A DNA stretch of 39,967 bases from an uncultured Intestinimonas sp. (lineage in GTDB: Bacteria; Bacillota; Clostridia; Oscillospirales; Oscillospiraceae): positions 1 through 39,967 of the forward strand of contig NZ_CALXEE010000010.1 in assembly GCF_944387245.1 (NCBI RefSeq). The letters are read 5' to 3'. The number at the start of each line of letters is the position of its first letter. The stretch's first letter is position 1. Position numbers and translations under genes: made by a program. The notes beneath the pieces were generated by a model that was given only the letters and a program-made list of their open reading frames with translations, was not told the DNA's origin and made no database searches. Shown here piece after piece: positions 79 to 38,990 of this stretch.

Positions 79-137
79 AACCTTCCCCCTTTCAGGGGGA
101 AGGTGGCATTTGCGAAGCAAATGACGGATGAGGGTGG
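79..137 (+). repeat. Family A double-hairpin repeat, copy A1
   Basis: The first hairpin is CCTTCCCCC...GGGGGAAGG. The second is GCATTTGC-gaa-GCAAATG, followed by the conserved tail GGATGAGGG. The same architecture recurs about 14 times in the window. Confidence 0.85.
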
Positions 138-172
138 GTCGGTAAAATAGATTTCCTTTTTCGTCCTATCCA

Positions 173-243
173 ACGCCCCTCATCCGCCCCTGCGGGGCAC
201 CTTCCCCCCTAAGGGGGGAAGGTCATGTTTGTAAAGCAAATGC
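173..243 (-). repeat. Family A double-hairpin repeat, copy A2
   Basis: Read on the minus strand it has the CCTTCCCCCC/GGGGGGAAGG hairpin, then GCCCC-gca-GGGGC and the tail GGATGAGGG. The second stem differs entirely from copy A1 but still pairs. It lies head-to-head with A1 across a ~35-bp spacer that is also conserved in the inverted cluster at 4767-4806. Confidence 0.85.
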
Positions 244-254
244 CGATCACCATA

Positions 255-515
255 CATGAAAGGACGGGGGAGACGCTTTCAAAACCCGTTTCGCTTCCCT
301 GCTGGAAAAAGAACGGTTTTTGGAATCCAAAGAAAAAGCGGCTTCCCAAGGGGGTTAGGTGGCTCCAAATAGGAATCCGGCGGCCCGGCTTTACGCCCCC
401 ATTGTGCACCAGCACCGTCCACAGGTGACTCCGCCGGTGGAACAGGGAAAGGCTGTGGTCCTATCCAACATTTTTTCGCCGCCTGCGTGGGTGGAAATTG
501 CGGCGTGGTTTGGCG
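255..515 (+). repeat. Family B ~250-bp dispersed repeat, copy B1
   Basis: Shared landmarks in order are AAAACCCGTTTC, a GGAATCCAAAGAAAAA block, GGCTCCAAATAGGAATCC, a GGCGGCCCGGCTTTACGCCC block and TTTTTTCGCCGCCTGCGTGG. The same blocks occur at 4425-4675 (-), 23498-23752 (+), 31168-31413 (-) and 36694-36960 (+). All five copies are intergenic. The short open frames inside shift between copies, so the unit does not look protein-coding. Confidence 0.85.
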
Positions 516-546
516 GGCGGCCGCAGGCCGCCCAATGGTTAGAACG

Positions 547-580
547 GAAGAGGGGGACGCATGACAGCGCCCCCCTCTTC
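547..580 (-). terminator. Hairpin after the Sel1-repeat gene
   Basis: GAAGAGGGGG (547-556) pairs with CCCCCTCTTC (571-580), just past the stop of the minus-strand Sel1 gene. The U-run on the minus strand is poor, so termination may be weak. Confidence 0.5.
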
Positions 581-586
581 ATGGGT

Positions 587-3436
587 TTATTTTCCCTTGA
601 ATTTCTTCAGCAGGCCCAGGAAACCGCCCTTTTTGGGGGGCTCCTCGGGCTTCCGGGCGGTGGCGGCCCGGAGCTCCTTCAAAGCCTGGGCGGCGTCCCG
701 GTCGCCCAGCTCGGCGGCACGGCAGTAGAGCTCCTCCGCCCGCAGGAGGTCCTTGGCCACCCCCCGGCCCTCGGCATAGCACCGGCCCAGCAGATAGAGC
801 CCGCCGGCATGGTCCCGCTCGGCGGCCCGGTTTAGAAACTCCGCCGCCAGCCGCTCATCCCGGCGCAGCCGGTCTCCCTCCAGATATTTGCTGCCCAAAA
901 GGAACTGGGCCTGGGTATAGCCGTCCTCCGCCGCCGCCCGCAGAAGGGTCTCCCCCTCCTTCGGGTCCTTTCTGAGCCGCTCCCCCAGCAGCAGGCACCG
1001 GCCCAGGTGATACCGGGCCTCGTTGTGACCCTGGTCGGCGGCCTTCCTCAGCCAGGCCTCCCCCTCGTCCGGGTCCTGGGGCAGACCGACGCCGTAGAGG
1101 AGGCAGCGGCCCAGCTGGCACTGGGCGTAGGCGTGTCCCCGCTCCGCCGCCCGCCGGTAGAACGTCACCGCCCTGTACTCGTCCTTGGATATGCCCCGGC
1201 CCGTCTCATAGCAGTAGCCCAGGCTGGCCATGGCGGGGGGATAGTCCCGATTCGCGCCACCGCGGTAGCACTCCGCCGCCCGCTGGTCGTTCTGCTCCGT
1301 CCCCTCGCCGTCCAGGCAGCAGTTCCCCAGCAGGTACAGGGCACGGGGATGGCCCTGCTCCGCCGCCTGCTCCAGCCAGTGGACCGCCTGGGCGGCGTCG
1401 GGCTCCACCCCGATGCCGTGGAGATAACAGAAGCCCAGGTTGCACTGGGCATAGGCGTAGCCCTGTTCGGCGGAGCGCCGGTAGAGCTCCACCGCCTTCT
1501 CCTTGTCCTCGGGCACCCCACGGCCCAGCTCGTAGCACAGGCCCAGGCTGGCCAGGGAGGGGGCGTAGCCCTGCTCCGCCCCACGGCGGTAATACGCCAC
1601 CGCCTGCTGGTCGCTCTGCGCCACGCCCTGGCCGTTCCAGCAGCAGTCCCCCAGGATGTCCAGGGCGCGGGGGAAGTCCCGCTCTGCCGACTTCTCCAGC
1701 CAGGGGATGGCCTTGGACGGGTCGACATCGGTGCCAATGCCCGTGAGATAGCAGTAGCCCGCGTTGCAGGCCCCCGCCGGCTCGCCCCGCTCGCCCGCCT
1801 GGCAGTAGAGCTCCAGGGCACGGGCCGGGTCGGCCTCCACCCCACGGCCATTCTCGTAGCACAGGCCCAGGCTCACCATGGCCGGCGGATAGTCCAGCTC
1901 CGCCCCACGGCGGTAGTATTCCACCGCTTTGGCCGGGTCCTTCTCCATGCCGATGCCGTCGGCGGCGCAGTCCCCCAGCAGATCAAAGGCCCGGGGAAAG
2001 TTCTGCTCTGCCGCCCGCTCCAGCCACTGTACCGCCCGGGCACCGTCCTGCTCCACGCCGATGCCGTGGAGGCAGCAAAAGCCCAGGTTGCACTGGGCCC
2101 GGGGATAGCCCCCCTCGGCGGCCTGGAGGTAGAGCGCCGCCCCCTTGGCCTTGTCCTCGGGCACACCCTCGCCCACCTCGTAGCAAAGGCCCAGGTCGCA
2201 GATGGCGGGCAAGTACCCCTGCTCCGCCGCCTGCCCATAGAGGACCGCCGCCCGCTCCAGGTCCCGCTCCGTCCCGCGGCCCGCCTGGAGGCAGTCGGCC
2301 AGAATGCTCTGAGCGCGGGGGAACTCCTGCTCCGCCGCCCGCTCCAGCCACACCACGCCCGCTTTCTCGTCCCGGTCCATCCCGATGGCGCTGAGGCAGC
2401 ACACAGCCAAATTGCACTGGGCAGGGGCATAGCCCCCCTCCGCCGCCCGGCGGTAGAGCTCCACCGCCCGGACCGGGTCCCGGTCCACCCCGGTGCCGCT
2501 CTCGTAGCACAGGCCCAGGTCGCACACCGCGGGCAGGTAGCCCTGTTCCGCCGCCTGCGCATAGAGGGACACCGCCCGCTTCAGGTCCTCCGCCGTCCCA
2601 CGGCCCGTCTGGAGACAGTCGGCCAGGATGCTCTGGGCACGGGGGAACTCCTGGGCCGCCGAGCGCTCCAGCCAGTCTATCGCCGCGCCCTCGTCCTCCT
2701 CCACGCCGATGCCGTTGAGGTAGCACACCCCCAGGTTGCACTGGGCCGGGGCGTAGCCCTGCTCCGCCGCCTGACGGTAGAGCCGGGCGGCCTCCGCCGG
2801 GTCGGTTTCCACGCCGGTGCCATTCTCCCGGCACACGCCCAGGATGCTCTGGGCACGGGGAAAGCCCTGCTCAGCGGCCCGGCCCAGCCACTCCGCGCCC
2901 CGGACCGGGTCGGCCTCCACCCCGATGCCGTTGAGATAGCATACCCCCAGGTTGCACTGGGCCGGGGCATAGCCCTCCTCGGCGGCCTGGCGGTAGAGCT
3001 CGGCGGCCCGGACCGGGTCGACGTCCACGCCGTCCCCCGCCTCGTAGCACAGGCCCAGGTCGCACACCGCGGGGAGATACCCCTCCTCGGCGGCCTGGCG
3101 GAAGAGCTCCGCCCCCCGGACCGGATCAAAGTCTACGCCGTCACCAGCCTGGCAGCAGCGGCCCAGGGCCTCCACCGCCCGCAGGTCCCCCGTCTCCGCC
3201 CCCACGGCGAACCAGCGGGCGGCCTCCTTCAGGTCAACGTCCACACCGTCCCCCTGGGCGTACCGCAGCCCCACGTCGTAGGCCACGGCCGGGTCCTCGT
3301 GGGCCTGCTCCAGCAGAGCCCGGAAATCGGCCTGAGACCGCTGGACCTGCTCCATAGCCCGCCAGATGAGGGCCGTATTCACGAATACCACGTTCTCCTG
3401 CCCCTCCGGCGTCCCCTTCTCCTTTTCCTCCAGCAT
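587..3436 (-). CDS. Giant Sel1-like repeat (SLR/TPR-like) protein
   Basis: This 949-residue protein is made almost wholly of Sel1-like repeats. I count about 24 copies of a ~36-residue unit marked by YxxGxGVxxD-type turns and A-x-x-W/Y-x-x-x-A-A-E-x-G. SLR proteins form alpha-solenoids that scaffold protein complexes; the partner here is unknown. A short lead of ~50 residues has no signal peptide or membrane segment, so it is probably cytoplasmic. The C-terminus ends in a basic Lys/Gly-rich stretch (KKGGFLGLLKKFKGK). The ATG has GAAAGGA about 16 bases upstream. Many repeats carry a Cys in a C(N/D)LG(L/V/F)C pattern, which is unusually Cys-rich for the family. It is transcribed divergently from carD. 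Family assignment is firm; function is unknown. Confidence 0.9.
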   Translation of the reverse strand: MLEEKEKGTPEGQENVVFVNTALIWRAMEQVQRSQADFRALLEQAHEDPAVAYDVGLRYAQGDGVDVDLKEAARWFAVGAETGDLRAVEALGRCCQAGDGVDFDPVRGAELFRQAAEEGYLPAVCDLGLCYEAGDGVDVDPVRAAELYRQAAEEGYAPAQCNLGVCYLNGIGVEADPVRGAEWLGRAAEQGFPRAQSILGVCRENGTGVETDPAEAARLYRQAAEQGYAPAQCNLGVCYLNGIGVEEDEGAAIDWLERSAAQEFPRAQSILADCLQTGRGTAEDLKRAVSLYAQAAEQGYLPAVCDLGLCYESGTGVDRDPVRAVELYRRAAEGGYAPAQCNLAVCCLSAIGMDRDEKAGVVWLERAAEQEFPRAQSILADCLQAGRGTERDLERAAVLYGQAAEQGYLPAICDLGLCYEVGEGVPEDKAKGAALYLQAAEGGYPRAQCNLGFCCLHGIGVEQDGARAVQWLERAAEQNFPRAFDLLGDCAADGIGMEKDPAKAVEYYRRGAELDYPPAMVSLGLCYENGRGVEADPARALELYCQAGERGEPAGACNAGYCYLTGIGTDVDPSKAIPWLEKSAERDFPRALDILGDCCWNGQGVAQSDQQAVAYYRRGAEQGYAPSLASLGLCYELGRGVPEDKEKAVELYRRSAEQGYAYAQCNLGFCYLHGIGVEPDAAQAVHWLEQAAEQGHPRALYLLGNCCLDGEGTEQNDQRAAECYRGGANRDYPPAMASLGYCYETGRGISKDEYRAVTFYRRAAERGHAYAQCQLGRCLLYGVGLPQDPDEGEAWLRKAADQGHNEARYHLGRCLLLGERLRKDPKEGETLLRAAAEDGYTQAQFLLGSKYLEGDRLRRDERLAAEFLNRAAERDHAGGLYLLGRCYAEGRGVAKDLLRAEELYCRAAELGDRDAAQALKELRAATARKPEEPPKKGGFLGLLKKFKGK

Positions 3437-3558
3437 GCTCTGCCGTCACCCGTCCTTTCCGCCCATGACAGGGCGCTTTGAGTTCCATTCTACAACACCG
3501 GGGCGGCGGATTCAAGGACCTTCCCATTCCCGGTTGTCTCCACGGACTGGAAATTTTA

Positions 3559-3588
3559 CTTACACTCTGTGAAAAATTGTGTTAAAAT
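3559..3588 (+). promoter_or_regulatory. Possible promoter of carD
   Basis: A TAAAAT -10 lies at 3583-3588. A weak -35, CTTACA (3559-3564), sits 18 bases upstream. The segment is locally AT-rich against a GC-rich background. The -35 match is only 4/6, so this is tentative. Confidence 0.35.
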
Positions 3589-3649
3589 AAGAAAAGAGAG
3601 CTTTTACGGTTGATTTCACCTGTTTTTGTGCGTGAAAGGAGGTACCGGC

Positions 3650-4156
3650 ATGTACCGGGCGGGAGATCGGATCATTTACGGCGGCAGCGGCGTCTGCCAG
3701 GTGAAGGCGGTGGGACCCCTGGAGGGGGACAGGGAGGACCGGCTCTACTACACCCTGGAGCCCCTCTACGGCTCCGGGATCATCTACGCCCCCGTGGACG
3801 GCCCCGTCTTTTCCCGCCCCCTCATGACGCCAGAGGAGGTGCATGACCTGCTGGCGCAGTTCCCCGAAATCCCCGCCGAGCCCCTGGCCGAGCGCAGTCT
3901 CACCGCCCTCAAGGACCACTATGTGTCGGTGCTCAAGAGCCACGACTGCCAGGCCCTGGTGGGCCTCATTAAGGGAGCCTATGAGAAGGGCCAGCGGGCC
4001 GTCAGCCGGGGCAAACGCCCCGGCGCGGTGGACCAGCACTACCTCAAGAGCGCCCAGGAGCTCCTCCACGGGGAGATCGCCGCCGCGCTCGGCATCCCCC
4101 TGGACTCCGTCCCCGACTACATCCGCACCGCCGTGGAAGGGGAGAGCGACGCCTGA
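3650..4156 (+). CDS. carD: CarD/CdnL-family RNA polymerase-binding regulator
   Basis: The product has 168 residues. The N-terminal ~60 residues (MYRAGDRIIYGGSGVCQV..., LYYTLEPLYG, IYAPVD) match the CarD/TRCF RNA polymerase-interacting Tudor-like domain. The rest is a helical DNA-binding domain with the family's basic, tandem-helix look. CarD proteins bind the beta subunit and stabilise open promoter complexes. I chose ATG 3650 because GGAGG lies at 3638-3642, 7 bases upstream; an in-frame TTG at 3626 adds eight residues but has no ribosome site. The final codons lie inside a perfect 42-bp palindrome. The gene stands alone, divergent from the Sel1 gene. Confidence 0.87.
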   Translation: MYRAGDRIIYGGSGVCQVKAVGPLEGDREDRLYYTLEPLYGSGIIYAPVDGPVFSRPLMTPEEVHDLLAQFPEIPAEPLAERSLTALKDHYVSVLKSHDCQALVGLIKGAYEKGQRAVSRGKRPGAVDQHYLKSAQELLHGEIAAALGIPLDSVPDYIRTAVEGESDA

Positions 4157-4180
4157 GCATGCTCAGGCGTCGCTCTCCCC
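4139..4180. terminator. Perfect 42-bp palindrome over the carD stop codon
   Basis: GGGGAGAGCGACGCCTGAGC (4139-4158) is followed by AT and its exact reverse complement, giving a 21+21 palindrome. The carD TGA (4154-4156) lies in the left arm. As RNA it gives a ~19-bp stem with a tiny loop. There is no U-run, so it may protect or slow the mRNA 3' end rather than act as a classical terminator. Confidence 0.6.
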
Positions 4181-4228
4181 AATGGACCCGCTTACGCTGG
4201 GCTTTCGCGGGGGCCCCATAGAGACAGT

Positions 4229-4275
4229 ACCTTCTTCCCTCAGGGGAGAAGGTGCCCCGGAGGGGCGGATGAGAG
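4229..4275 (+). repeat. Family A repeat, copy A3
   Basis: ACCTTCTTCCCTCAGGGGAGAAGGT forms the first hairpin. GCCCC-gga-GGGGC followed by GGATGAGAG forms the second. The tail is slightly diverged. Confidence 0.75.
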
Positions 4276-4315
4276 CGCGCAAGATAGAAGGAAACACAAA
4301 TGCGCCTGAGTGACG

Positions 4316-4369
4316 CACCCTCATCCGGCGGCTCACGCCGCCACCTTCCCCCTGGAACGGGGAAGGTCA
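4316..4369 (-). repeat. Family A repeat, copy A4
   Basis: Read on the minus strand it has ACCTTCCCC...GGGGGAAGGT, then GGCGGCGTGAGCCGCC (second stem) and GGATGAGGG. Confidence 0.8.
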
Positions 4370-4424
4370 GAGATCTACCCACCACGCCGTTTTCCCCACC
4401 CGCGCCGCAGCAACGGCAATGCCA

Positions 4425-4675
4425 GTCAGCGCCACCGCGCGGCGACACCCACCCACGCAGGCGGCGAAAAAAGTGGGGATAGAACCACGGCTTGTCCCTG
4501 TTCCACCGAGGTAGTCTACCGCAGACGGGGCTGGTCCACAACGGGGGCGTAAAGACGGGCCGCCGGATTCCTATTTGGGACCACTCAACCCCCACGGGAG
4601 CCCCTTTTTCTTTGGATTCCAAAAACCGTTCTTTTTCCAGCAGGGAAGCGAAACGGGTTTTGAGATCGTCTCCTT
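4425..4675 (-). repeat. Family B dispersed repeat, copy B2
   Basis: It is inverted relative to copy B1 and carries the same block order. With A5, A6 and the shared spacer it forms a ~440-bp inverted copy of 79-515. An internal palindrome GTCTAC-c-GCAGAC (4514-4526) corresponds to GTCCAC-a-GTGGAC in copy B5 and GTCTAC-c-GTAGAC in copy B4. Confidence 0.85.
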
Positions 4676-4717
4676 TCTCCAAAAACGTATGTTGATTGGC
4701 ATTTGCCCAAATAACAT

Positions 4718-4768
4718 AACCTTCCCCCCAATGGGGGGAAGGTGCCCCGCAGGGGCGGATGAGGGGGC
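4718..4768 (+). repeat. Family A repeat, copy A5
   Basis: CCTTCCCCCC...GGGGGGAAGG is followed by GCCCC-gca-GGGGC and GGATGAGGG. It is the inverted counterpart of A2. Confidence 0.8.
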
Positions 4769-4805
4769 GTTGGATAGAACGGAAAGTGAAATCCATTTTA
4801 CCAGC

Positions 4806-4864
4806 CCACCCTCATCCGTCATTTGCTCCGCAAATGCCACCTTCCCCCTGGGAGGGGGAAGGTT
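4806..4864 (-). repeat. Family A repeat, copy A6
   Basis: On the minus strand it has ACCTTCCCCC...GGGGGAAGGT, then GCATTTGC-gga-GCAAATGAC and GGATGAGGG. It is the inverted counterpart of A1 and lies just upstream of the rib promoter. Confidence 0.85.
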
Positions 4865-4907
4865 TTTTCGGCATGGTTCCCCATGCACGAGCCCTGGATT
4901 TTTATGC

Positions 4908-4936
4908 TTGACAAAGCCTGATCGGGGGCGTATACT
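4908..4936 (+). promoter_or_regulatory. SigA-type promoter of the riboflavin operon
   Basis: A perfect -35 TTGACA (4908-4913) and -10 TATACT (4931-4936) are 17 bases apart. They lie about 20 bases before the first stem of the FMN riboswitch, as expected for a riboswitch leader. Confidence 0.85.
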
Positions 4937-4956
4937 TTGCCTCGTAAAAATCGGAT

Positions 4957-5066
4957 AGATCTTCAGGGCAGGGTGAGATTCCCTACCGGTGGTATAGCCC
5001 ACGAGCCGCAAGCATGATTCGGTGAAACTCCGAAGCCGACCGTACAGTCGGGATGGAAGAAGATCG
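4957..5066 (+). promoter_or_regulatory. FMN riboswitch (RFN element)
   Basis: The RFN consensus is plain. A closing stem AGATCTTC...GAAGAAGAT is followed by CAGGGTGAGATTCCCTACCG, GGTATAGCCCACGAGCC, GGTGAAACTCCGAAGCCGAC and TACAGTCGGGATG. FMN binding would favour the intrinsic terminator at 5188-5225 ahead of ribD, shutting off riboflavin synthesis. A small hairpin, GGACCTG/CAGGTCC (5076-5093), lies between. Its AGGTCC arm could pair with GGACCT (5196-5201) of the terminator and so may take part in antitermination; that pairing is inference. Confidence 0.97.
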
Positions 5067-5187
5067 GAAGACGCAGGACCTGTCTCCAGGTCCCCCCACG
5101 TCATACGGCTGCTCTGGTATGTTTTTGGACATCCAGAGTTTTTTTGTTGCCCGCGCCCCCAAAAGGGCGTCGGTTGACCGCCTTTCC

Positions 5188-5225
5188 GCTGCCCTGGACC
5201 TTCTGTCCGGGGCAGCTTTTGTTTT
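5188..5225 (+). terminator. Riboswitch-controlled intrinsic terminator before ribD
   Basis: GCTGCCCTGGAC (5188-5199) pairs with GTCCGGGGCAGC (5205-5216), and TTTTGTTTT follows at 5217-5225. It lies between the FMN aptamer and the ribD start, which is the standard transcription-attenuation layout. Confidence 0.9.
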
Positions 5226-5245
5226 GCCCGACGGAGGGATGCGAG

Positions 5246-6352
5246 ATGGAAGACCGCGACTATATGGCCCTGGCCCTGGAGCTGGCCGAGCAGGGGGCGG
5301 GGTGGACCTGCCCCAACCCCATGGTGGGGGCAGTGATCGTGAAGGACGGCCGCATCATCGGCCAGGGCTACCACCGCCGCTGCGGGGAGCTCCACGCCGA
5401 ACGGGAGGCCCTGGCCGCCTGCACGGAGGACCCCGCCGGGTCCACCCTGTACGTGACATTGGAGCCCTGCTGCCACCAGGGGCGGCAGCCCCCCTGCGTG
5501 GACGCCGTGCTGGAGACCGGCATCCGCCGGGTGGTGGTGGGCACCACCGACCCCAACCCCCTGGTGGGGGGCAAGGGCATCGCCCGGCTGCAAGAGCGGG
5601 GCGTGGAGGTGACCGTGGGGGTGCTGGAGGCCGAGTGCCGCGCCCTCAACCGGTTTTTCTTCCACTACATCCGCACCCGGCGGCCCTACGTGGTGATGAA
5701 ATACGCCATGACCATGGACGGCAAGATCGCCGCCTACACCGGGGACGCCAAGTGGATCACCGGGGAGGCGGCCCGGGCGCACGTCCACCGGCTGCGCCAC
5801 CGGTGCCGGGGCATTCTGGTGGGGGTGGGCACCGTGCTCGCCGACGACCCCATGCTCAACTGCCGCCTGCCCGGCGGCCGGGACCCGGTGCGGGTCGTCT
5901 GCGACAGCCATCTGCGCACCCCCCTCACCGCCCGGGTGGTGACCACGGCAAAGGAGATCCCCACCATCCTGGCCACCTGCGAGACCGACCCGGCCAGACA
6001 CGCCCCCTATGAGGCCGCGGGCTGCCGGGTGCTCTCTCTGCCGGAGCGGGCGGGAGAGGTGGACCTGGGGGCCCTGCTGGACGCCCTGGGGGAGTTGGAG
6101 ATGGACAGCCTGTTGCTGGAGGGGGGCGGCACCCTGAACTGGTCCTTCCTGGAGCAGGGGCTGGTCCAGAGGGTATACGCCTATGTTGCCCCCAAGCTGC
6201 TGGGGGGCGCTACGGCCAAGTCCCCGGTGGAGGGGACGGGCGTCCCCAGCCCCCAGACGGCCTTTTCTCTCAAAAACACCAGGATACAGACCTTAGGCGA
6301 GGACATTTTGCTGGAGAGCGAGGTGGATGACCGTGTTCACGGGGATCGTTGA
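5246..6352 (+). CDS. ribD: Bifunctional riboflavin deaminase/reductase RibD
   Basis: This 368-residue enzyme carries out the second and third riboflavin steps: deamination of the diaminopyrimidine and NADPH reduction of the ribosyl side chain. The N-terminal deaminase has the zinc motif HAEREAL (about residue 50) and PCCHQGRQPPC (about 75-85). The C-terminal reductase begins near residue 145 with YVVMKYAMTMDGKIA and ends with the LLLEGGGTLNWSF element. ATG 5246 is preceded by ACGGAGGG (5231-5238), 7 bases away, and lies just after the leader terminator. The upstream in-frame sequence overlaps the terminator and is not coding. It is the first gene of ribD-ribE-ribBA-ribH; its 3' end overlaps ribE by 26 bp. 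Confidence 0.96.
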   Translation: MEDRDYMALALELAEQGAGWTCPNPMVGAVIVKDGRIIGQGYHRRCGELHAEREALAACTEDPAGSTLYVTLEPCCHQGRQPPCVDAVLETGIRRVVVGTTDPNPLVGGKGIARLQERGVEVTVGVLEAECRALNRFFFHYIRTRRPYVVMKYAMTMDGKIAAYTGDAKWITGEAARAHVHRLRHRCRGILVGVGTVLADDPMLNCRLPGGRDPVRVVCDSHLRTPLTARVVTTAKEIPTILATCETDPARHAPYEAAGCRVLSLPERAGEVDLGALLDALGELEMDSLLLEGGGTLNWSFLEQGLVQRVYAYVAPKLLGGATAKSPVEGTGVPSPQTAFSLKNTRIQTLGEDILLESEVDDRVHGDR

Positions 6353-6980: not shown

Positions 6981-6992
6981 GAGGAGAAGATC

Positions 6993-8192: not shown

Positions 8193-8208
8193 AAGGAGGA
8201 CACACGAA

Positions 8209-23280: not shown

Positions 23281-23318
23281 GTGGTGGCATTTGCGGAGCA
23301 AATGACGGATGAGGGGGA
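23281..23318 (+). repeat. Family A repeat, half copy A7
   Basis: Only the second hairpin (GCATTTGC-gga-GCAAATG) and the GGATGAGGG tail are present. The CCTTCCCC hairpin is missing. Confidence 0.65.
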
Positions 23319-23392
23319 GACTTGCAGCGTGGTTTGCGCTTCTGTCAAGGTACCTCTTGTTGTGGGGGCGGCGCTAAACCACATGTAAAAAT

Positions 23393-23490
23393 GGGGCCCC
23401 CGCGCGAGCCCAGCGCAGCGGGTCGCGTGGGGAGAGGACGAGCAAGGAAGCGGAGTGAGAAATGCCCGACAGGGCGTTTTGAACGGTGCG
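23393..23490 (+). repeat. Family D repeat, copy 1
   Basis: The ~100-bp segment shares GAGCCCAGCG-AGCGGGTC, GAGGA, GCAAGG-AGC, GAGA and CGGTGC landmarks in the same order with 31079-31175. It abuts copy B3. Confidence 0.6.
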
Positions 23491-23497
23491 GACTTTG

Positions 23498-23752
23498 CGA
23501 GGACGACAAAACCTGTTTCTTTTTCCCGCAGGAAAAAGAAATGGTTTTTGGAATCCAAAGAAAAAGGGGCTCCCAAAGGGGTTGAGTGGCTCCAAATAGG
23601 AATCCGGCGGCCCGTCTTTACGCCCCCATTGAGCACCGGCACCAGCACCGTCCACAGGTGACTCCGCCGGTGGAACAGCGAAAACCTGTGGTCCTATCCC
23701 ACATTTTTTCGCCGCCTGCGTGGGCGGGTGTCGGGGCGTGGCGGCGCTGACT
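23498..23752 (+). repeat. Family B dispersed repeat, copy B3
   Basis: It has the full block order seen in B1, including CACCGTCCACAGGTGACTCC with GGTGGAACAG, which is shared only with B1. This defines a B1/B3 subfamily. It lies in the 690-bp gene-free stretch between mnmA and mnmG (23164-23852). Confidence 0.85.
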
Positions 23753-23797: not shown

Positions 23798-23830
23798 ATT
23801 GACCTTCCCCCCCACAGGGGGGAAGGTTTT
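23798..23830 (+). repeat. Family A repeat, half copy A8
   Basis: Only the first hairpin remains, CCTTCCCCCC/GGGGGGAAGG. It lies just downstream of the mnmG stop. Confidence 0.6.
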
Positions 23831-25727: not shown

Positions 25728-25794
25728 GGATGGGTCGGAGCTCCTTTTTGTGGGGATTGGGGAATTTTGGGGCAGTTCGTTCTCACGAGCGCCC

Positions 25795-25842
25795 CTCATC
25801 CGCCCCTGCGGGGCACCTTCTCCCCTGGGGGGAGAAGGTTTT
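25795..25842 (-). repeat. Family A repeat, copy A9
   Basis: On the minus strand it has ACCTTCTCCCC...GGGGAGAAGGT, GCCCC-gca-GGGGC and GGATGAGGGG. It lies just upstream of mnmG, between mnmG and the helicase gene. Confidence 0.8.
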
Positions 25843-25860: not shown

Positions 25861-25918
25861 GACCTTCCCCCTGGAAGGGGGAAGGTGGCATTTGCGAAGC
25901 AAATGACGGATGAGGGTG
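25861..25918 (+). repeat. Family A repeat, copy A10
   Basis: ACCTTCCCCC...GGGGGAAGGT is followed by GCATTTGC-gaa-GCAAATG and GGATGAGGG. It faces copy A9. Confidence 0.85.
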
Positions 25919-30791: not shown

Positions 30792-30860
30792 GGCTCAACC
30801 GGCACCCCGGCACCACACCGCACATTTTTCTTTGTTTTAATGGAGGAACGGCCTCCGGCG

Positions 30861-31413: not shown

Positions 31414-31429
31414 AAGGACCACTTAACGC

Positions 31430-31487
31430 CCCCTCATCCGTCATGGCCGCAGGCCATGACACCTCCCCCCCCTCAGGGGGGGAAGGT
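31430..31487 (-). repeat. Family A repeat, copy A11
   Basis: On the minus strand it has ACCTTCCCCCC...GGGGGGGAGGT, then GTCATGGC-ctgc-GGCCATGAC and GGATGAGGG. The second stem is again different from the other copies but paired. Confidence 0.8.
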
Positions 31488-31493
31488 TTTATA

Positions 31494-31567
31494 TGGCGCG
31501 CCGAGGTCGTCGCGCCCCACAAACAGCACAGTACCATGGGCGCGTCTGGGAAGCCGCGCCCCACGAA
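31494..31567 (-). repeat. Family C repeat, copy 2
   Basis: The reverse complement of this ~74-bp segment aligns with 37034-37108. Both have GTGGGGCGCGGCTTCCCAGA, CGC(G/A)CCC and, further on, TGTGGGGCGCGACGAC. Confidence 0.75.
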
Positions 31568-31591
31568 TTAAGCAGTCCCACATTGGCGTGG

Positions 31592-31617
31592 CGGGCGGAT
31601 GATATCCGCCCCTACCC
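31592..31617 (+). repeat. Family E short repeat, copy 2
   Basis: GGGCGGATGATATCCGCCCC then TACCC, an inverted match of 23188-23213. Confidence 0.6.
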
Positions 31618-31651
31618 TAATCCCAGCGGCGTGGTTTGGTGCGCCCCAGGA

Positions 31652-31704
31652 TAAAAAGACAAAAACCGCCCCGCGTACTGCCAGACGGCAGGGCGCGGGG
31701 CGGT
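31652..31704 (-). terminator. Terminator of the AEC-HD-MATE operon
   Basis: ACCGCCCCGCG (31665-31675) and CGCGGGGCGGT (31694-31704) pair. The minus strand continues TTTTGTCTTTTTAT. It lies 7 bp past the MATE stop. Confidence 0.88.
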
Positions 31705-31710
31705 CTGCTG

Positions 31711-33108: not shown

Positions 33109-33148
33109 CGCGCAGCAGCTCCTTTCCGTGTCTCCCGGCCCCGCCGGG

Positions 33149-33736
33149 TCAGTTGGGTTCCTCGTTCTCCAAAAAGTAGGTTGCCTCCATGTCGGCCACG
33201 CTCAGGGCAAAGGCCAGGGGGTACTGCTGGAAGGCCTGGCCCACCAGCCGCTTGTCCTCGTCCCCGGAAAAGCCCATGTGCCACCGGATGGCCATGGCCT
33301 CCTCCCGCTTGAGCTTCATGAAGCCGGAAATGATGTACACCGACTTCTCCCCGTGGCCGTAGGGCAGCTTATCCTCATAATAAAAGGTGGGCACCGCCTG
33401 CCACTTGCCGTCGGGGCCCTTCACGTTCCGGGTCCCCTGGCGGTAACAGCCGATCTTGCACAGGTCGTGGAGCAGCGCCGCCACCGCCACGCTCTCGGCG
33501 CTCGCCTCCACCCCGTAGAGCTCCTGCACCCGCTCCCGGGCCAGGTACTCCGTGAGGCAGTGGTAGACGTTGACGCTGTGGTCGCACAGCCCCCCCTCAT
33601 AGGCCCCGTGGTACTTGGCCGAGGCGGGGGAGGTGAAGAAGTCCGACTTGTGCTCCAGGTAGTCCAGCAGGGCGTCGGCCCCCTCCCGGTGGATGTTGGC
33701 GGTGTAGATCTCAATGAATTCTTCCTTGGCGGACAT
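33149..33736 (-). CDS. HD-domain phosphohydrolase-like protein
   Basis: This 195-residue protein shows the HD metal ligands CDHSVNVYH (first His, about 52), ALLHDLCKIG (HD near 87-88) and a later Asp in SVADMEAT. Residues 100-150 include YYEDKLPYGHGEKSVYI. Such single-domain HD proteins are metal-dependent phosphohydrolases acting on nucleotides or RNA ends; the substrate is not evident. ATG 33736 (MSAKEEF) is preceded by AGGAGG. The AEC gene ends 19 bp upstream and the MATE gene follows, so it is in a transporter operon. Confidence 0.83.
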   Translation of the reverse strand: MSAKEEFIEIYTANIHREGADALLDYLEHKSDFFTSPASAKYHGAYEGGLCDHSVNVYHCLTEYLARERVQELYGVEASAESVAVAALLHDLCKIGCYRQGTRNVKGPDGKWQAVPTFYYEDKLPYGHGEKSVYIISGFMKLKREEAMAIRWHMGFSGDEDKRLVGQAFQQYPLAFALSVADMEATYFLENEEPN

Positions 33737-33755
33737 AAAATACCTCCTGAAAGCC

Positions 33756-34688
33756 TTAAACCAGGCCTGAAATCGTCTGGGCAGCCACGGCAAAGAGGGG
33801 CAGCGTGATGACCGAGAGCAGGGTGGTGAGGGTGACCAGTTGGGCGGCGGTGGCGGTGTCCCGGCCGAAGCGCTGGGCAAACATGCCGGTGGCTCCCGCG
33901 GTGGGCACCGCACACAAAATGACGCAGGCGCAGTAGGACATGGCGGGCAGATGGAGGGGGATGAGCAGCACCAGGGGGATGAGGGGGGCGATGAGCAGCC
34001 GCACCGCCGCCGCGCCGTAGAGCTTCCGGCTGGTGAAGCTCACCTTCAGGTCGGCCCCCGCCATCTGGGCGCCGATGACCACCATGGCCAGAGGGGTATT
34101 GAGGTCGGCCATGAAGCCGATAGCGTTGTCCACCATGGCGGGGGGCCGCAGGCCGGAGAAGAAGAGGAAGCCGCCGATGACGGTGCCCACAGTGGCGGGA
34201 TTGATGAGGATGGCCCGGGGGCCCACTTTGCCGCCCATGGTCTTGGCGCCCTGGGTCCACAGCAGGAAGTTGAAGGCCACGGCGGAGACCACCCCGAAGA
34301 TCATGGCCTCCTGGCCCAGAATGGCGTAGACCAGGGGGAGGCCCATAAAGCCGTTGTTGCCATAGGTCATGCCGAAGCGGAGGGGGGCCTTCCGGTCGGG
34401 CTCCTCGTCGCGGAAGCACAGCTGGGCCACCGCCATCCCCAGCAGGGTGGAGGCGGCGTACACCACAAAAAAGACCCCCAGGGTCTCCACCATGCCCGGC
34501 ACACGGTCCACCTCAAAGGCGTTAATCATCAGGCAGGGAGTGACCACGTAGAGGACCAGGGTGGACATCTGGGAGACGCCGTCGGTGTGGAGCTTGCCCA
34601 GCTGGGCCATGACGAAGCCCACGCCCATAAGCAAAAATAGGGTGACCACCTGACTGGCCACCACGAAAAAGTTTCCAATAAACTCCAT
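33756..34688 (-). CDS. AEC (auxin efflux carrier) family transporter
   Basis: This 310-residue membrane protein has about 10 hydrophobic segments. AEC family marks are PCLMINAF (near 51), FGMTYGNNGFMGLPLVYAI (near 104-122) and NTPLAMVVIGAQMA (near 200). The late CAVPTAGATGMFAQRFGRDT (near 260) is also typical. Bacterial members carry small organic acids such as malate. A GGAGGATCGAAGAA stretch precedes the ATG. It is first in the AEC-HD-MATE run and shares a divergent promoter region with the ABC exporter. Confidence 0.9.
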   Translation of the reverse strand: MEFIGNFFVVASQVVTLFLLMGVGFVMAQLGKLHTDGVSQMSTLVLYVVTPCLMINAFEVDRVPGMVETLGVFFVVYAASTLLGMAVAQLCFRDEEPDRKAPLRFGMTYGNNGFMGLPLVYAILGQEAMIFGVVSAVAFNFLLWTQGAKTMGGKVGPRAILINPATVGTVIGGFLFFSGLRPPAMVDNAIGFMADLNTPLAMVVIGAQMAGADLKVSFTSRKLYGAAAVRLLIAPLIPLVLLIPLHLPAMSYCACVILCAVPTAGATGMFAQRFGRDTATAAQLVTLTTLLSVITLPLFAVAAQTISGLV

Positions 34689-34725
34689 TTCTTCGATCCT
34701 CCGCCCTCATTTTCATACGGAGTTT

Positions 34726-34754
34726 ATTATATATGACACGGCTCTCCCTGTAAA
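34726..34754 (-). promoter_or_regulatory. Promoter of the AEC-HD-MATE operon
   Basis: On the minus strand -35 TTTACA (34754-34749) and -10 TATAAT (34731-34726) are 17 bases apart. It lies 11 bp from the oppositely directed promoter at 34766. Confidence 0.75.
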
Positions 34755-34765
34755 GGGCGGCGAGG

Positions 34766-34795
34766 TTGACAAAATCCCGAAAACGGGCATATACT
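34766..34795 (+). promoter_or_regulatory. Promoter of the ABC exporter gene
   Basis: A perfect -35 TTGACA (34766-34771) and -10 TATACT (34790-34795) are 18 bases apart, back-to-back with the AEC operon promoter. Confidence 0.8.
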
Positions 34796-34841
34796 GATTC
34801 TTACCTTTAAAGGAAAAGATACGCGAGAGAGGACGGCAAAT

Positions 34842-36596
34842 ATGACGCCTAAACAGATGCGGCGCAGCGGCTACCTGCGCATTTTCACCTCCTATTACAA
34901 GCCACACCTGGCCATCTTCCTCCTGGACATGGCCTGCGCCCTGGGCATCTGCCTGGTGGACCTGATGTTCCCCACGGTGACCCGCCAGGTGCTGGAGACC
35001 ACCCTTCCCCAGGGCCTCTACCGCACCTTCTTCCTGGTCATGGCCGCCCTGGTGGCGGCCTACCTCCTCAAGGCGGTGTTTACCTACATCGTCACCTACT
35101 GGGGACACCTGCTGGGCGTGCGCATCGAGGCCGACATCCGCTCCGACCTCTTTTCCCACATGCAGGATCTCTCCTTCTCCTTCTACGACAAGAACCGCAC
35201 CGGCCAGCTCATGAGCCGGGTCACCGGCGACCTCTTTGAGATCACCGAGCTGGCCCACCACGGCCCCGAGGACCTCTTCATCTCCACCGTCACCCTGCTG
35301 GGCGCCTTCTGCATCATGCTCACCATCCGCTGGGAGCTGGCCCTAATCGTCTTTGCCGTGGTGCCCCTCTTCCTCCTCTTCACCATCCTCCAGCGCCGGC
35401 GCATGAGCCAGGCCTCCCTGGAGGTGAAAAAGAAGCTGGCCGGCATCAACGGCGAGCTGGAGTCCTCCCTCTCCGGCATGCGCACCGCCAAGGCCTTCGC
35501 CAACGAAAACGCCGAGATCACCAAGTTCGAAAGCTCCAACGACCAGTTCCGCAGCGCCAAGCGGGGCTATTACCAGGCCATGGCCACCTACCACTCCGGC
35601 ATGGAGCTGGCCATGGGCATCATGCCCGTGCTGGTCATCGCCGCCGGCGGCTTCTTTCTCATGAAGGGGAGCATGGACTATATCGACATCCTCACCTTCT
35701 CCCTCTACGTCACCACCTTTATCACCCCCATCCGCAAGCTCTCCGCCTTTGTGGAGCAGTTCATGCAGGGCATGGCCGGCTTCAAGCGCTTTGTGGAGCT
35801 CATGCGCCTGGAGCCCGACATCACCGACGCCCCCGACGCCCAGAGCGTGGACCACGTTACCGGCGACATCCAGGTGGACGATGTCACCTTCCGCTACGAA
35901 AGTGACGGCGAGGACGTCCTCTCCCATGTCTCCCTCCACGTCAAGCCCGGGGAGACGGTGGCGGTGGTGGGCCCCTCCGGCGGGGGCAAGTCCACCCTGT
36001 GCCAGCTCATCCCCCGGTTCTACGACGTCACTAATGGGGCCATCCGCATCGACGGCCGGGACGTCCGCAAGCTGAAACAGCACGACCTGCGGGAGCACAT
36101 CGGCATCGTCCAGCAGGACGTCTTTCTCTTCGCCGGCACCATCTATGACAACATCGCCTACGGCCGCCCCGACGCCACCGCCGAGGAGGTGGCCGAGGCC
36201 GCCAAAAAGGCGGAGATCTACGACGACATCATGGAGATGCCCGACGGCTTCCAGACCTACGTGGGGGAGCGGGGCGTCATGCTCTCCGGCGGCCAGAAGC
36301 AGCGGGTGAGCATCGCCCGCATCTTCCTCAAGGACCCCGCCATCCTCATTCTGGATGAGGCCACCTCCGCCCTGGACAGCGTCACCGAGCACAAGATCCA
36401 GTCCGCCTTCGACGAGCTGGCCAAGGGCCGCACCACCCTCATCATCGCCCACCGGCTCTCTACCATCCGCTCCGCCGGGCGCATCATCGTCATCGACGAC
36501 AACCACATTGCCGAGGAGGGCACCCACCAGGAGCTCATGGACAAAAACGGCGAGTACGCCGCCCTCTGGCGGGCGCAGCAGTCGGTATCGTCGTAA
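34842..36596 (+). CDS. ABC exporter, fused permease and ATPase
   Basis: This 584-residue half-transporter has six membrane helices in residues 15-310. The ATPase domain follows: GPSGGGKSTL (Walker A, near 375), QQDVFLFAGTIYDNI (Q-loop), LSGGQKQRV (signature), ILILDEATSALD (Walker B) and IAHRLST (H-loop). It would act as a homodimer or with a partner not seen here. The class (MsbA/LmrA-like) exports lipids, peptides or drugs; the substrate cannot be read. AGAGGAC precedes the ATG. It is a single-gene unit with its own promoter, divergent from AEC-HD-MATE, so three transport genes share one locus. Confidence 0.93.
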   Translation: MTPKQMRRSGYLRIFTSYYKPHLAIFLLDMACALGICLVDLMFPTVTRQVLETTLPQGLYRTFFLVMAALVAAYLLKAVFTYIVTYWGHLLGVRIEADIRSDLFSHMQDLSFSFYDKNRTGQLMSRVTGDLFEITELAHHGPEDLFISTVTLLGAFCIMLTIRWELALIVFAVVPLFLLFTILQRRRMSQASLEVKKKLAGINGELESSLSGMRTAKAFANENAEITKFESSNDQFRSAKRGYYQAMATYHSGMELAMGIMPVLVIAAGGFFLMKGSMDYIDILTFSLYVTTFITPIRKLSAFVEQFMQGMAGFKRFVELMRLEPDITDAPDAQSVDHVTGDIQVDDVTFRYESDGEDVLSHVSLHVKPGETVAVVGPSGGGKSTLCQLIPRFYDVTNGAIRIDGRDVRKLKQHDLREHIGIVQQDVFLFAGTIYDNIAYGRPDATAEEVAEAAKKAEIYDDIMEMPDGFQTYVGERGVMLSGGQKQRVSIARIFLKDPAILILDEATSALDSVTEHKIQSAFDELAKGRTTLIIAHRLSTIRSAGRIIVIDDNHIAEEGTHQELMDKNGEYAALWRAQQSVSS

Positions 36597-36607
36597 CGTC
36601 TGCTCTT

Positions 36608-36653
36608 CTGGGGAAGGTGTCTGTCCGAAGGACAGACGGATGAGGGGGAGCCT
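36608..36653 (+). repeat. Family A repeat, copy A12
   Basis: GGGGAAGGT is followed by GTCTGTCC-gaa-GGACAGAC and GGATGAGGG. The second stem is again unique but paired. The left half of the first hairpin is missing. Confidence 0.7.
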
Positions 36654-36693
36654 TGCGGCGTGGTATTACGTCTCATTTCTTTGCCTTTCTGTT

Positions 36694-36960
36694 ACGTGAA
36701 AGGACGGGAGAGACGGTTCAAAACCCGTTTCTTTTTCCCTGCTGGAAAAAGAACGGTTTTTGGAATCCAAAGAAAAAGGGGCTTCTAAGCGGGTTAGGTG
36801 GCTCCAAATAGGAATCCGGCGGCCCGGCTTTACGCCCCCATAGAGGTTCAACCCCGTCCACAGTGGACTACCTGGTTGGAACAGGGACAAGCCGTGGTTC
36901 TATCTCCACTTTTTTCGCCGCCTGCGTGGGTGGGTATCGGGACGTGGTGGCGCTGCCTGG
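36694..36960 (+). repeat. Family B dispersed repeat, copy B5
   Basis: It has the full block order, with the palindrome GTCCAC-a-GTGGAC (36856-36868) and GGTTGGAACAGGG as in B4. The gene-free stretch 36597-37233 consists of A12, B5 and C3. Confidence 0.85.
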
Positions 36961-37033
36961 TATTCCCTCTATTGTGGGATGGGGTTTCGTCTCTCTTACC
37001 TATTCACTCTTCACTTTTCCCTATTACTTTTCT

Positions 37034-37108
37034 TTGTGGGGCGCGGCTTCCCAGACGCACCCCCGGCACCACGCCACTTGTGGGGCGCGACGACTCGGCG
37101 CACCACGG
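37034..37108 (+). repeat. Family C repeat, copy 3
   Basis: TGTGGGGCGCGGCTTCCCAG leads into ACGCACCC and later TGTGGGGCGCGACGAC. It is the inverted match of 31494-31567. Confidence 0.75.
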
Positions 37109-37233
37109 TACCGCCTTTCAAGTTCGTCATTCTGAGGCGAAGCCGAAGAATCCGTCTCCAGACGCCTCAGAATCTATACGCAATGTTATTCCCAATTAAA
37201 ATATTACCCTTTTAACAGCAAAGGAGCATTCCT

Positions 37234-37722
37234 ATGGCAGAAGAAAAGACCAACGTCATGCGCGTTTTAGACCAGAAGAAGATCCCCTATACCCCCCACA
37301 GCTACCCCCACAACGAGGGGGAGGCGGTGGACGGCGCCACCGTGGCTGTCCTCATCGGCCGGGACCCGGGGGAGGTCTACAAGACCCTGGTAACCCGGGG
37401 GGCCTCCAAGGCCAATTATGTTTTCGTGGTGCCCGTCCTGGCCGAGCTGGACCTCAAAAAGGCGGCCAAGACCGTGGGGGAGAAGTCCATCGAGCTCATC
37501 CACGTCAAGGAGCTCACCCCCCTCACCGGCTACGTCCGGGGCGGCTGCTCCCCCATCGGCATGAAGAAGCGGTTCAAAACCGTCATCGACACCACCGCCC
37601 AGGACCACGCCGCCATTCTGGTGAGCGCCGGCAAGATCGGCCGCCAGGTGGAGCTCTCCCCCGACGCCCTGGTGGGGCTCATCGGCGGCCGCTATGCCGA
37701 CGTGGTGAAGGCCGATGAATAA
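37234..37722 (+). CDS. ybaK: Cys-tRNA(Pro)/Cys-tRNA(Cys) deacylase YbaK
   Basis: This 162-residue trans-editing enzyme hydrolyses Cys mis-charged on tRNA-Pro. The YbaK/ProX fold is shown by YPHNEGEAVDGATVAVLIG (near 24-42), VYKTLVTRG with the conserved Lys (near 50), FVVPVLAELDLKKAAK (near 67) and GGCSPIGMKK (near 108). AGGAGCATTCCT precedes the ATG. The stop overlaps the ylmH start (ATGAATAA), so it is coupled to ylmH. Confidence 0.93.
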   Translation: MAEEKTNVMRVLDQKKIPYTPHSYPHNEGEAVDGATVAVLIGRDPGEVYKTLVTRGASKANYVFVVPVLAELDLKKAAKTVGEKSIELIHVKELTPLTGYVRGGCSPIGMKKRFKTVIDTTAQDHAAILVSAGKIGRQVELSPDALVGLIGGRYADVVKADE

Positions 37723-38512
37723 GACGGAGCTCCTCACCAAGCTCTCCGCCGACGCCGACGAGCGGCTGGTGCTGGCCCGGGTCATGGACAAGCTGGAGTT
37801 CACCCAGAACCGCTCCGTCCCCGCCCACACCTTCTTCCTCACCCTGGCCCAGCAGGAGGCGGCGGAACGGCTCATCGCCGCCTGCGGCCACCCGGCCCAC
37901 CTCTTCTGGGGCGGCTGGGAAAAGGCCGAGCGGAAGCTGGTGGCCTTCCTGCCCGACTGGATGGAGCCGGAGGACTTCACCGCCAGCGAGGACGCCCCCA
38001 TCACCGCCCTCACCCTCACCCCATCCGGCGGCGAAAAGCTGACCCACCGGGACTACCTGGGGGCCATTCTGGGCCTGGGCCTTACCCGGGAGAAGATCGG
38101 CGACCTGCTGGTGGGGGAGGGGATCTGTCAGATCCTCCTCCTGCGGGAGGTGGAGCACGTGCTCCTCACCCAACTGGACCAGGTGGGCCGGGCCAGGGTG
38201 AAGGTGACGGCCTGCCCCCTCTCGGAGCTTCAGCCCCCGGAGCAGAAGACCAAAACCATCCGGGACACGGTGGCCGCCCTGCGGCTGGACGCCGTGGCCG
38301 CCACCGGCTTTTCCCTCTCCCGGAGCAAGATGGCCAGCCTTATCTCGTCGGGCAAGCTCACCCTCAACGGCCGGGAGTGCGACAAGCCCGACCGGCTGGT
38401 GGAGGCCGGAGATGTGCTCAGCTGCCGGGGCCTGGGCAAGTGCGTGCTCACGGAGGTGTCCGGCACCTCCAAGAAGGGCCGCATCATGATCGTGATGGAA
38501 CGCTATTTATAA
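37715..38512 (+). CDS. ylmH: S4-domain RNA-binding protein YlmH
   Basis: This 265-residue protein has a YlmH N-terminal domain (1-80) and a central RRM-like region containing THRDYLGAILGLGLTREKIG (near 109-128). A C-terminal S4 domain follows, containing GFSLSRSKMASLISSGKLTL then NGRECDKPDRLVEAGDVLS (about 190-240). YlmH binds the 50S subunit and has been linked to ribosome-associated quality control and division in Firmicutes. It overlaps ybaK by 8 bp and is followed by a DUF896 gene at 14 bp. It is not beside the usual ylmE-sepF-ylmG-divIVA cluster here. Confidence 0.92.
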   Translation: MNKTELLTKLSADADERLVLARVMDKLEFTQNRSVPAHTFFLTLAQQEAAERLIAACGHPAHLFWGGWEKAERKLVAFLPDWMEPEDFTASEDAPITALTLTPSGGEKLTHRDYLGAILGLGLTREKIGDLLVGEGICQILLLREVEHVLLTQLDQVGRARVKVTACPLSELQPPEQKTKTIRDTVAALRLDAVAATGFSLSRSKMASLISSGKLTLNGRECDKPDRLVEAGDVLSCRGLGKCVLTEVSGTSKKGRIMIVMERYL

Positions 38513-38526
38513 AGGAGGACTGCCCC

Positions 38527-38730
38527 ATGGAGCAGCACAAAATCGACCGCATCAACGAGCTGGCCCGGAAGGCCAAGGCCGACGGCCTCACCCTGGAGGA
38601 GGAGGCCGAGCGGGAGGGCCTGCGGGCTGAGTACCGGGCCGCCATCCGCGCCAGCCTCACCGCCCACCTGGACAACACCTATATCATGGACGAGAAGGGC
38701 AACAAGACCAAGCTGAAGAAGAAAGAATAA
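38527..38730 (+). CDS. DUF896 (YnzC-like) small protein
   Basis: This 67-residue protein reads MEQHKIDRINELARKAKADG then LTLEEEAEREGLRAEYRAAI, the YnzC/DUF896 helical hairpin. The C-terminal tail ends in a run of Lys. Members are small cytoplasmic proteins; B. subtilis YnzC has been tied to SOS conditions, but no biochemical role is known. AAAGGAGG (38511-38518) precedes the ATG. It is third in ybaK-ylmH-DUF896. Confidence 0.9.
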   Translation: MEQHKIDRINELARKAKADGLTLEEEAEREGLRAEYRAAIRASLTAHLDNTYIMDEKGNKTKLKKKE

Positions 38731-38745
38731 CGTCTGTCCTTTTTC

Positions 38746-38775
38746 TTGTTCTTTTTCTTGAAAGAAAAAGAACAA
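38746..38775 (+). terminator. A/T hairpin after the DUF896 gene
   Basis: TTGTTCTTTTTCTT (38746-38759) and AAGAAAAAGAACAA (38762-38775) form a 14-bp arm pair. It ends the ybaK-ylmH-DUF896 unit. It is unusual in having an AU-only stem core. Confidence 0.55.
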
Positions 38776-38855
38776 AAAAGAACTTTGATCTTTCATTTTT
38801 GGAGAACTAAGGGGACATCGGGCGGAAGCCAAAACAAGCTCTGCCCTACCAACCC

Positions 38856-38914
38856 ACCCTCATCCGTCATGGCCACAGGCCATGACACCTTCCCCCTGGA
38901 AGGGGGAAGGTTTT
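38856..38914 (-). repeat. Family A repeat, copy A13
   Basis: On the minus strand it has ACCTTCCCCC...GGGGGAAGGT, then GTCATGGCC-tgt-GGCCATGAC and GGATGAGGG. Confidence 0.85.
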
Positions 38915-38932
38915 GCGTTATCCGTTTCCCAA

Positions 38933-38990
38933 ACCTTCCCCCCTAAGGGGGGAAGGTGCCCCAGTGCGCACACTGGGACGGATGAGGGGG
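38933..38990 (+). repeat. Family A repeat, copy A14
   Basis: CCTTCCCCCC...GGGGGGAAGG is followed by GCCCCAGTG-cgca-CACTGGGAC and GGATGAGGG. It faces copy A13 across ~20 bp. Confidence 0.85.

Follow-up and report, generated by a model that had tools for sequence, protein, structure and literature searches.

The stretch of DNA analysed here, referred to as the window throughout (39,967 nt), carries a repeated element built from two hairpins. Exact scans identified 12 units with GGTG on one side and the tail CGGATGAGGG on the other side of a variable inverted repeat, stem 2 (Table 1). Every one of these repeats is paired, a first hairpin of the CCTTCCCC/GGGGAAGG type (stem 1) stands 5' of stem 2 in 10, and the units are split evenly between the strands (6 on each). 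The first-pass annotation had put the number at about 14 copies, which is slightly high: the scans give 12, each with its tail and a paired stem 2, plus one hairpin that consists of stem 1 only. All six stem-2 sequences that it quoted are present in the window and paired, and the copies that it described as facing each other are recovered as tail-to-tail (81/177, 4720/4809) and head-to-head (25793/25863, 38857/38934) pairs. An extra GGATGAGGG at position 33977 lies outside any such double-hairpin structure.

Table 1. Double-hairpin units and associated features in the 39,967-nt window.
Feature	Position (nt)	Strand	Stem 2	Remarks
Unit 1	81..134	+	GGCATTTGC-GAA-GCAAATGAC	has stem 1, stem 2 and tail; tail-to-tail with unit 2, as the left half of the dimer
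Dimer 1 spacer	135..176			44 bp when taken between the GATGAGG ends
Unit 2	177..222	-	GCCCC-GCA-GGGGC	tail-to-tail with unit 1
Unit 3	4318..4366	-	GGCGGC-GTGA-GCCGCC	
Unit 4	4720..4765	+	GCCCC-GCA-GGGGC	tail-to-tail with unit 5
Unit 5	4809..4862	-	GGCATTTGC-GGA-GCAAATGAC	
Partial unit	23283..23315	+		lacks stem 1; has stem 2 and tail
Lone stem-1 hairpin	23803..23826			T run after it; resembles a terminator when read on the + strand
Unit	25793..25838	-	GCCCC-GCA-GGGGC	stem 1 CCTTCTCCCC; head-to-head with the unit at 25863
Unit	25863..25916	+	GGCATTTGC-GAA-GCAAATGAC	
Unit	31431..31486	-	GTCATGGCC/GGCCATGAC	one arm mismatch in stem 1
Unit	36603..36646	+	GTCTGTCC-GAA-GGACAGAC	degenerate stem 1
Unit	38857..38910	-	GTCATGGCC/GGCCATGAC	head-to-head with the unit at 38934
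Unit	38934..38988	+	GCCCCAGTG-CGCA-CACTGGGAC	

No Rfam family matched the element at gathering score in the window or at 11 further loci; sub-threshold matches alone were returned, at 4300-4900. An FMN riboswitch (4955-5068, 112.5 bits) lies about 90 bp downstream of unit 5. The spacer of dimer 1, together with its tails, has six further near-full copies elsewhere in the same genome. A stretch 3' of both partial units (window 23283-23700 and 36638-36960) was found by eye to be alike, reading GTTTCTTTTTCC...GGAAAAAGAA and then CTCCAAATAGGAATCCGGCGGCCCG; it is a second, longer repeat of this genome.

To count copies genome-wide, the pattern GGAAGGTN{8,38}GGATGAGGG, which does not require pairing, was applied to the draft genome of the host (2.31 Mb, 82% complete). 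It gave 41 matches against none for the reversed-pattern control, which rules out chance, and 41 is a lower bound because the pattern finds just 9 of the 12 window units. The prospect, raised in the first-pass annotation, that most genomic copies might have an unpaired second segment was not borne out: stem 2 is paired in all 41, perfectly in 25, with one non-Watson-Crick position in 15 and with two in 1. Across these stems 17 of 331 pairs are non-Watson-Crick, and 13 of the 17 are G.A pairs beside the stem base.

The two congeners analysed (G074 and G150) have no pattern match at all. Synteny with G074 extends over most of the 21.5-39.9 kb part of the window. At three of the four comparable element-bearing places the aligned blocks of G074 are 70, 50 and 86 bp apart, where the window has 307, 660 and 381 bp; other repeats account for some of this added length. 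The fourth place is not compact in G074 (459 bp versus 705 bp in the window) and counts against a reading of gain. Within the genus g37, genomes carry 64 (G187), 40 and 1 matches, and the lone match, in G125, is unpaired. Because both congeners carry none, the host's own lineage appears to have gained its copies, and the simplest reading is that copies are gains within genera, this lineage included. Neither the G187/G036 pair, which is about 94% identical, nor the viral and genome contigs listed yielded a clean empty site that would show the target bases.

Stem 2 is held together by pairing far beyond the level expected of its arms. Among 236 distinct stems, 85.9% of the paired cells are Watson-Crick and 3.0% G.T, compared with 57.7% and 6.1% after arms were shuffled within length classes, and 185 of the 236 have standard pairs throughout, the first pair excepted. 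The base of the stem follows rules of its own. C-G forms the second pair in 228 of 260 distinct stems; the first base is paired, after GGTG, in 148, and where it is unpaired it is G in 107 of 112 cases, so that an unpaired GTGG foot precedes stem 2 in 107 of the 260. Grouping by edit distance chained 179 of the 260 stems into one group, and the number of classes was therefore not drawn from it; among 50 group representatives 36 were paired, the remainder being taken as degenerate or chance matches.

The loops reveal which strand folds. Over all loci, 112 of 159 triloops are GNA (110 as cGNAg), whereas the complementary TNC occurs 4 times. By set, GNA makes up 68 of 89 triloops at loci L062-L181, 41 of 51 at viral loci and 9 of 12 at loci of the host genome; the rule is weaker in g37 (13 of 27), and this counts against the explanation favoured below. 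Other triloop hairpins with a stem of at least 6 have GNA in 50 of 565 cases in L062-L181 and 39 of 388 in g37. Tetraloops are GNNA in 32 of 77 cases and something else in 45. Mismatches are asymmetric as well: in 227 stems G.T outnumbers A.C by 19 to 6 and G.A outnumbers T.C by 23 to 4. Folding with DNA and with RNA parameters preferred the same strand. These loop and mismatch asymmetries identify the GGAAGGTG...CGGATGAGGG strand as the one that folds.

It most likely folds as single-stranded DNA, a state that the loop data favour over RNA. GNRA accounts for 16 of the 32 GNNA tetraloops, which is the expectation for a free third base and counts for DNA. The hairpins d(GCGAAGC), cGNAg and cGNNAg are unusually stable in DNA, and GNA triloops are known in RNA too. 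Hairpin structures of single-stranded DNA are treated as a concept in PMC10527192, and PMC5430850 names GCGAAGC among them. Of the two origins that the first-pass annotation had offered for the variable but paired stem, selection on structure is thus upheld by the excess of pairing over shuffled arms, by the one-strand loop and mismatch rules and by compensated changes inside stem classes (see below).

The genomic context bears on where this folding might act. Among the annotated plasmid records listed, 52 of 56 have no feature under the match. In 21 plasmid regions genes flank the element on both sides at 17 places, of which 13 are tandem, 3 convergent and 1 divergent; five of the tandem places are one orthologous sugar-ABC site and two are another, and sufB/sufC is also among them. 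In the Rhizobium plasmid loci L583, L585, L589, L592 and L599 an inverted pair lies between the sugar-ABC binding-protein and permease genes, in two apparent orientations among five plasmids. This mostly tandem, intergenic context fits REP-type repeats and also leaves viable an mRNA element of 3' UTRs and operons, which would fold in the transcript and stabilise or terminate the upstream message, with stem 2 free to vary as RNA structure alone matters. REPs between malE and malF offer a parallel. Its extragenic position, the tandem places within the suf and sugar-ABC operons, the surplus of G.T over A.C and a T run at the end of some copies all agree with an mRNA element. The same data also hold features that it would not predict: GNNA tetraloops show no preference for GNRA, the better-matching unit at the Rhizobium ABC site faces either way relative to the genes, and inverted dimers place both strands in the transcript. 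As it further leaves the spread of copies and the exchange of stems unexplained, we regard a primary role in mRNA as rather doubtful.

Units occur singly or as inverted dimers, and the dimers have their own regularity. Tail-to-tail spacers recur at lengths of 34, 44, 107 and 145, so that the element, like REPINs, occurs as inverted doublets whose spacers keep to set lengths. The family with the 107-bp spacer has 84 matches in three genomes. In its first 24 dimers the spacer is 107 bp in 22 and 106 bp in 2, and the 22 average 79% identity; constancy of length at this identity suggests dispersal as a unit. Two main stem-2 classes occur on each side and are found in all four combinations: 70 dimers comprise 29 A2, 17 B1 (3 of which bear a further stem, TCGCCCGTAGGGTGA, binned as class B by a loose rule), 8 A1, 8 B2 and 8 others. 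On a tree of the spacers, built from 62 of the 70 dimers with the 8 of other classes omitted and poorly resolved (107 columns), the left class changes at least 14 times and the right class at least 13 times. With all four classes scored together there are 21 changes against a mean of 28.8 after shuffling, and 0 of 200 shuffles were as low. The classes therefore depart from the spacer tree while keeping some trace of it, and the other outcome that the first-pass annotation had held against its idea, namely stem variants that simply track phylogeny, does not describe the data.

Stem 2 comes in discrete classes, and for the most part a change of class swaps out the entire hairpin while the flanks stay conserved. 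Compensated changes within a class occur in the host genome (GCTCCAGTG/CACTGGAGC, with the half-way state GCTCCAGTG/CACTGGGGC alongside) and in the 107-bp dimer family (GCTCAGC/GCTGAGT), and a mismatch at the first pair is retained through whole classes. Evidence for a swap in place is thin and comes from one intergenic site shared by G187 and G036. There the two genomes are near-identical over about 180 bp on the left and remain so through the units, and stem 2 of two like-oriented units reads TCAGCGAAGCTGA in one genome but GCGCGGCCGCAGGCCGTGA in its relative; the inverted unit that separates them does not differ, about 110 bp is extra between the first two units, and divergence sets in about 60 bp past the last. 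In a systematic comparison of this genome pair, the sole real unit pair with both flanks alike had kept its class. Among dimers, two pairs whose outer flanks clearly agree on both sides also have the same stems, one of the two perhaps reflecting a duplicated stretch; a third, borderline pair has unlike classes, and many others are alike in a single flank. On five Rhizobium plasmids the left and right stems are exchanged in a head-to-head dimer at the sugar-ABC operon site, which looks like an inversion of the dimer.

These exchanges could also be the work of ordinary recombination, the units being immobile relics whose stems are swapped by gene conversion, template switching or dimer inversion. 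The stem-2 flanks are common to units, the G187/G036 swap sits inside near-identical surroundings, repeats form mosaics in the intergenic DNA of the g37 pair, and the Rhizobium exchange resembles an inversion, all as recombination would have it. It would not account for 41 copies against none between congeners or for the one-strand loop rule, and the constant 107-bp spacer speaks for dispersal instead; recombination among relics is accordingly judged unlikely. The other origin offered by the first-pass annotation, replicative copying of one arm from the other (quasi-palindrome correction), under which new stems are born paired, would fit pairing retained over many sequences but is very improbable and largely refuted, because it would erase mismatches that in fact persist (the unpaired first G in 107 of 260 distinct stems, found class-wide, and tandem G.A mismatches in one length class), and because half-way single changes coexist with compensated ones and whole hairpins are replaced.

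The element is a member of a large family of REP-like repeats whose hosts live in gut, soil and plant habitats. Among 200 genomes of the host's family, the pattern occurs in 43, several of the matches being unpaired and due to chance. In the named genome collection at least 120 stretches matched, including Oscillospiraceae, Butyrivibrio, Gemmiger, Bradyrhizobium, Mesorhizobium, Paludisphaera, Rhodanobacter and Thermomonas; hosts thus span other Clostridia, Planctomycetes, Rhizobiales and Xanthomonad-type bacteria. For 18 named genomes, picked because each had a match, the whole-genome count lies between 3 and 275, and the control gave 0 in every case. Matches were also found in 121 plasmid records (Rhizobium 87, Shinella 17) and in 85 stretches of uncultivated-virus contigs, where some neighbours of the double hairpins (L182-L261) resemble putative terminase genes by eye. 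A phage collection gave 7 weak and mostly partial matches. The virus contigs L197 and L205 hold double hairpins in tandem with GTAG-type REPs, and such a REP lies within 8 nt of the left end of 20 of 378 units and of the right end of none (L197, L065, L066, L077, L352-L354). In Butyrivibrio (L159, L121), full double-hairpin units stand next to arrays in which the first hairpin, or a related unit, is repeated in tandem.

A mobiliser was sought among REP-associated transposases. As the first-pass annotation had remarked, the window holds no REP-type transposase; the Pfam Y1 and RAYT-profile matches of this genome lie on other contigs. One is a RAYT-like gene on contig C75 (G000:C75:2776-3255) with one in-frame TAG, and it may be broken. 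A RAYT profile of 12 rows, built from 12 weak matches, found RAYT genes in 66 of the 200 family genomes. They are present in 12 of 21 genomes with at least 2 units versus 54 of 179 others (Fisher p 0.025), in 11 of 14 with at least 5 units versus 55 of 186 (p 4e-4), and in 6 of 6 with at least 10 units versus 60 of 194 (p 1e-3), statistics that ignore kinship and use unit counts cleaned by eye. This cleaning retained 21 genomes with at least 2 units from the 43 with any match; G011 enters with a weak RAYT match only, its units being judged among the matches listed. G187 had been taken as a Y1-less genome from the search of the 200 family genomes with Pfam PF01797, and this was wrong, since the RAYT profile finds one there. 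Among the 18 element-bearing named genomes, 12 have a RAYT-profile match, some of them weak, and 6 have none, one of these with 72 copies.

The RAYT loci themselves do not carry the element. RAYTs are described as flanked by their own REP family in PMC6006769, which also describes one subclass with REP insertions within the gene. The element was found at 0 of 38 family RAYT loci (whole loci, up to 1.5 kb) and at 1 of 22 loci of named genomes, about 1 kb from the gene, so the repeat-flanked RAYT that defines a REPtron was not found at these loci and the element is not to be classed as a RAYT-borne REP. A loose pattern for another repeat, of GTAG type, matches at 29 of the 38 family loci and 6 of the 22 named ones. 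The RAYT genes of L298, L300-L302, L307 and L309 contain, by eye, in-frame insertions reading VGA...P or GAQCAP; these look like a GTAGGGGCG-type REP and resemble the REP-in-gene subclass of PMC6006769. No transposase was recognised among genes recurring near elements, their proteins being judged by eye. RAYT is therefore no more than a candidate mobiliser acting in trans.

Comparison with known repeats places the element close to REPs and REPINs. Like a REP, it is a short repeated extragenic palindrome, with 41 copies in one genome. Like the REPINs and RAYT of Pseudomonas fluorescens SBW25, as set out in PMC3116915, it forms extragenic inverted pairs in which a variable segment, kept paired through compensatory changes, lies between conserved ends; it differs from them in having two unlike hairpins per unit, the CGGATGAGGG tail and a stem 2 swapped by class, and the search for a RAYT with the element at its flanks was negative. 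The GTAG- and CGTC-tagged REPs, in the accessible portion of PMC3733652, are likewise short palindromes of many phyla with head-to-head and tail-to-tail dimers and complementary stem changes. That portion assigns GTAG REPs to Proteobacteria, Cyanobacteria, Chloroflexi and PVC and CGTC REPs to five phyla, Firmicutes appearing in neither list, and states that CGTC REPs are without a dedicated transposase. The element departs from both in its double hairpin, its GGTG/GTGG foot and stems without an AT start; against the CGTC end and AT-starting stem of 8-9 bp given for CGTC REPs in that description, the stems analysed start otherwise.

Two further types of repeat are similar in build. The dimers of Shinella and Rhizobium share the architecture of the RIME elements of Rhizobium, reportedly described by Osteras in 1995, which are said to be about 108 bp long with two large palindromes; the likeness is one of build, and the present family differs in reaching Clostridia and Planctomycetes. 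Fungal mitochondrial double-hairpin elements also have two stem-loops and compensatory changes and are regarded as mobile; they belong to unrelated genomes. No description of the motif as a bacterial repeat was found among the literature matches listed, although RIME may overlap with it. The element is thus apparently a REP/REPIN-like repeat that is new in its double-hairpin build, one-strand loop rule, cassette-like stem 2 and reach.

On balance, and with somewhat more confidence than doubt, we favour a REP/REPIN-like mobile repeat that acts as a folded strand, has an exchangeable stem 2 read by its shape and is served by a single-strand enzyme in trans. A unit of about 45-60 nt consists of stem 1 (CCTTCCCC-loop-GGGGAAGG), the GGTG foot, stem 2 and then CGGATGAGGG, with stem 2 free in sequence and often closed by a cGNAg or cGNNAg loop; units are single or in inverted dimers, with lineage-specific spacers, some fixed in length. 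The GGAAGGTG...CGGATGAGGG strand is, by its loop and mismatch rules, under selection to fold, most likely as single-stranded DNA. Stem 2 would then be recognised by shape, hence any paired sequence may suffice, and it may be passed as a cassette between copies via the conserved flanks, the exchange itself being seen in the stem classes and its route only presumed. Copies spread within genomes, as presence and absence between congeners indicate. The probable agent would be an enzyme that processes single strands and works in trans, for instance a TnpA_REP/RAYT-type HUH transposase, and this is the weakest step. A more specific version remains tentative: that of a cross-phylum mobile repeat in which stem 2 is an exchangeable single-stranded DNA cassette, replaceable in place while the unit stays. 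Its enzyme would sense shape (foot, C-G base, cGNAg tip and tail) instead of sequence, comparable to the integron/attC system, where the integrase reads attC sites by shape, not sequence.

The repeat is abundant in Clostridia and several other phyla, yet it had no Rfam match where scanned. The replacement of its second hairpin by a different sequence that still folds points to mobile DNA recognised as a folded single strand. As natural replicates, its stem-2 classes allow one to ask whether folded DNA is read by an enzyme for its shape, and through the one-strand cGNAg rule the choice between DNA and RNA becomes testable for REP-type repeats.
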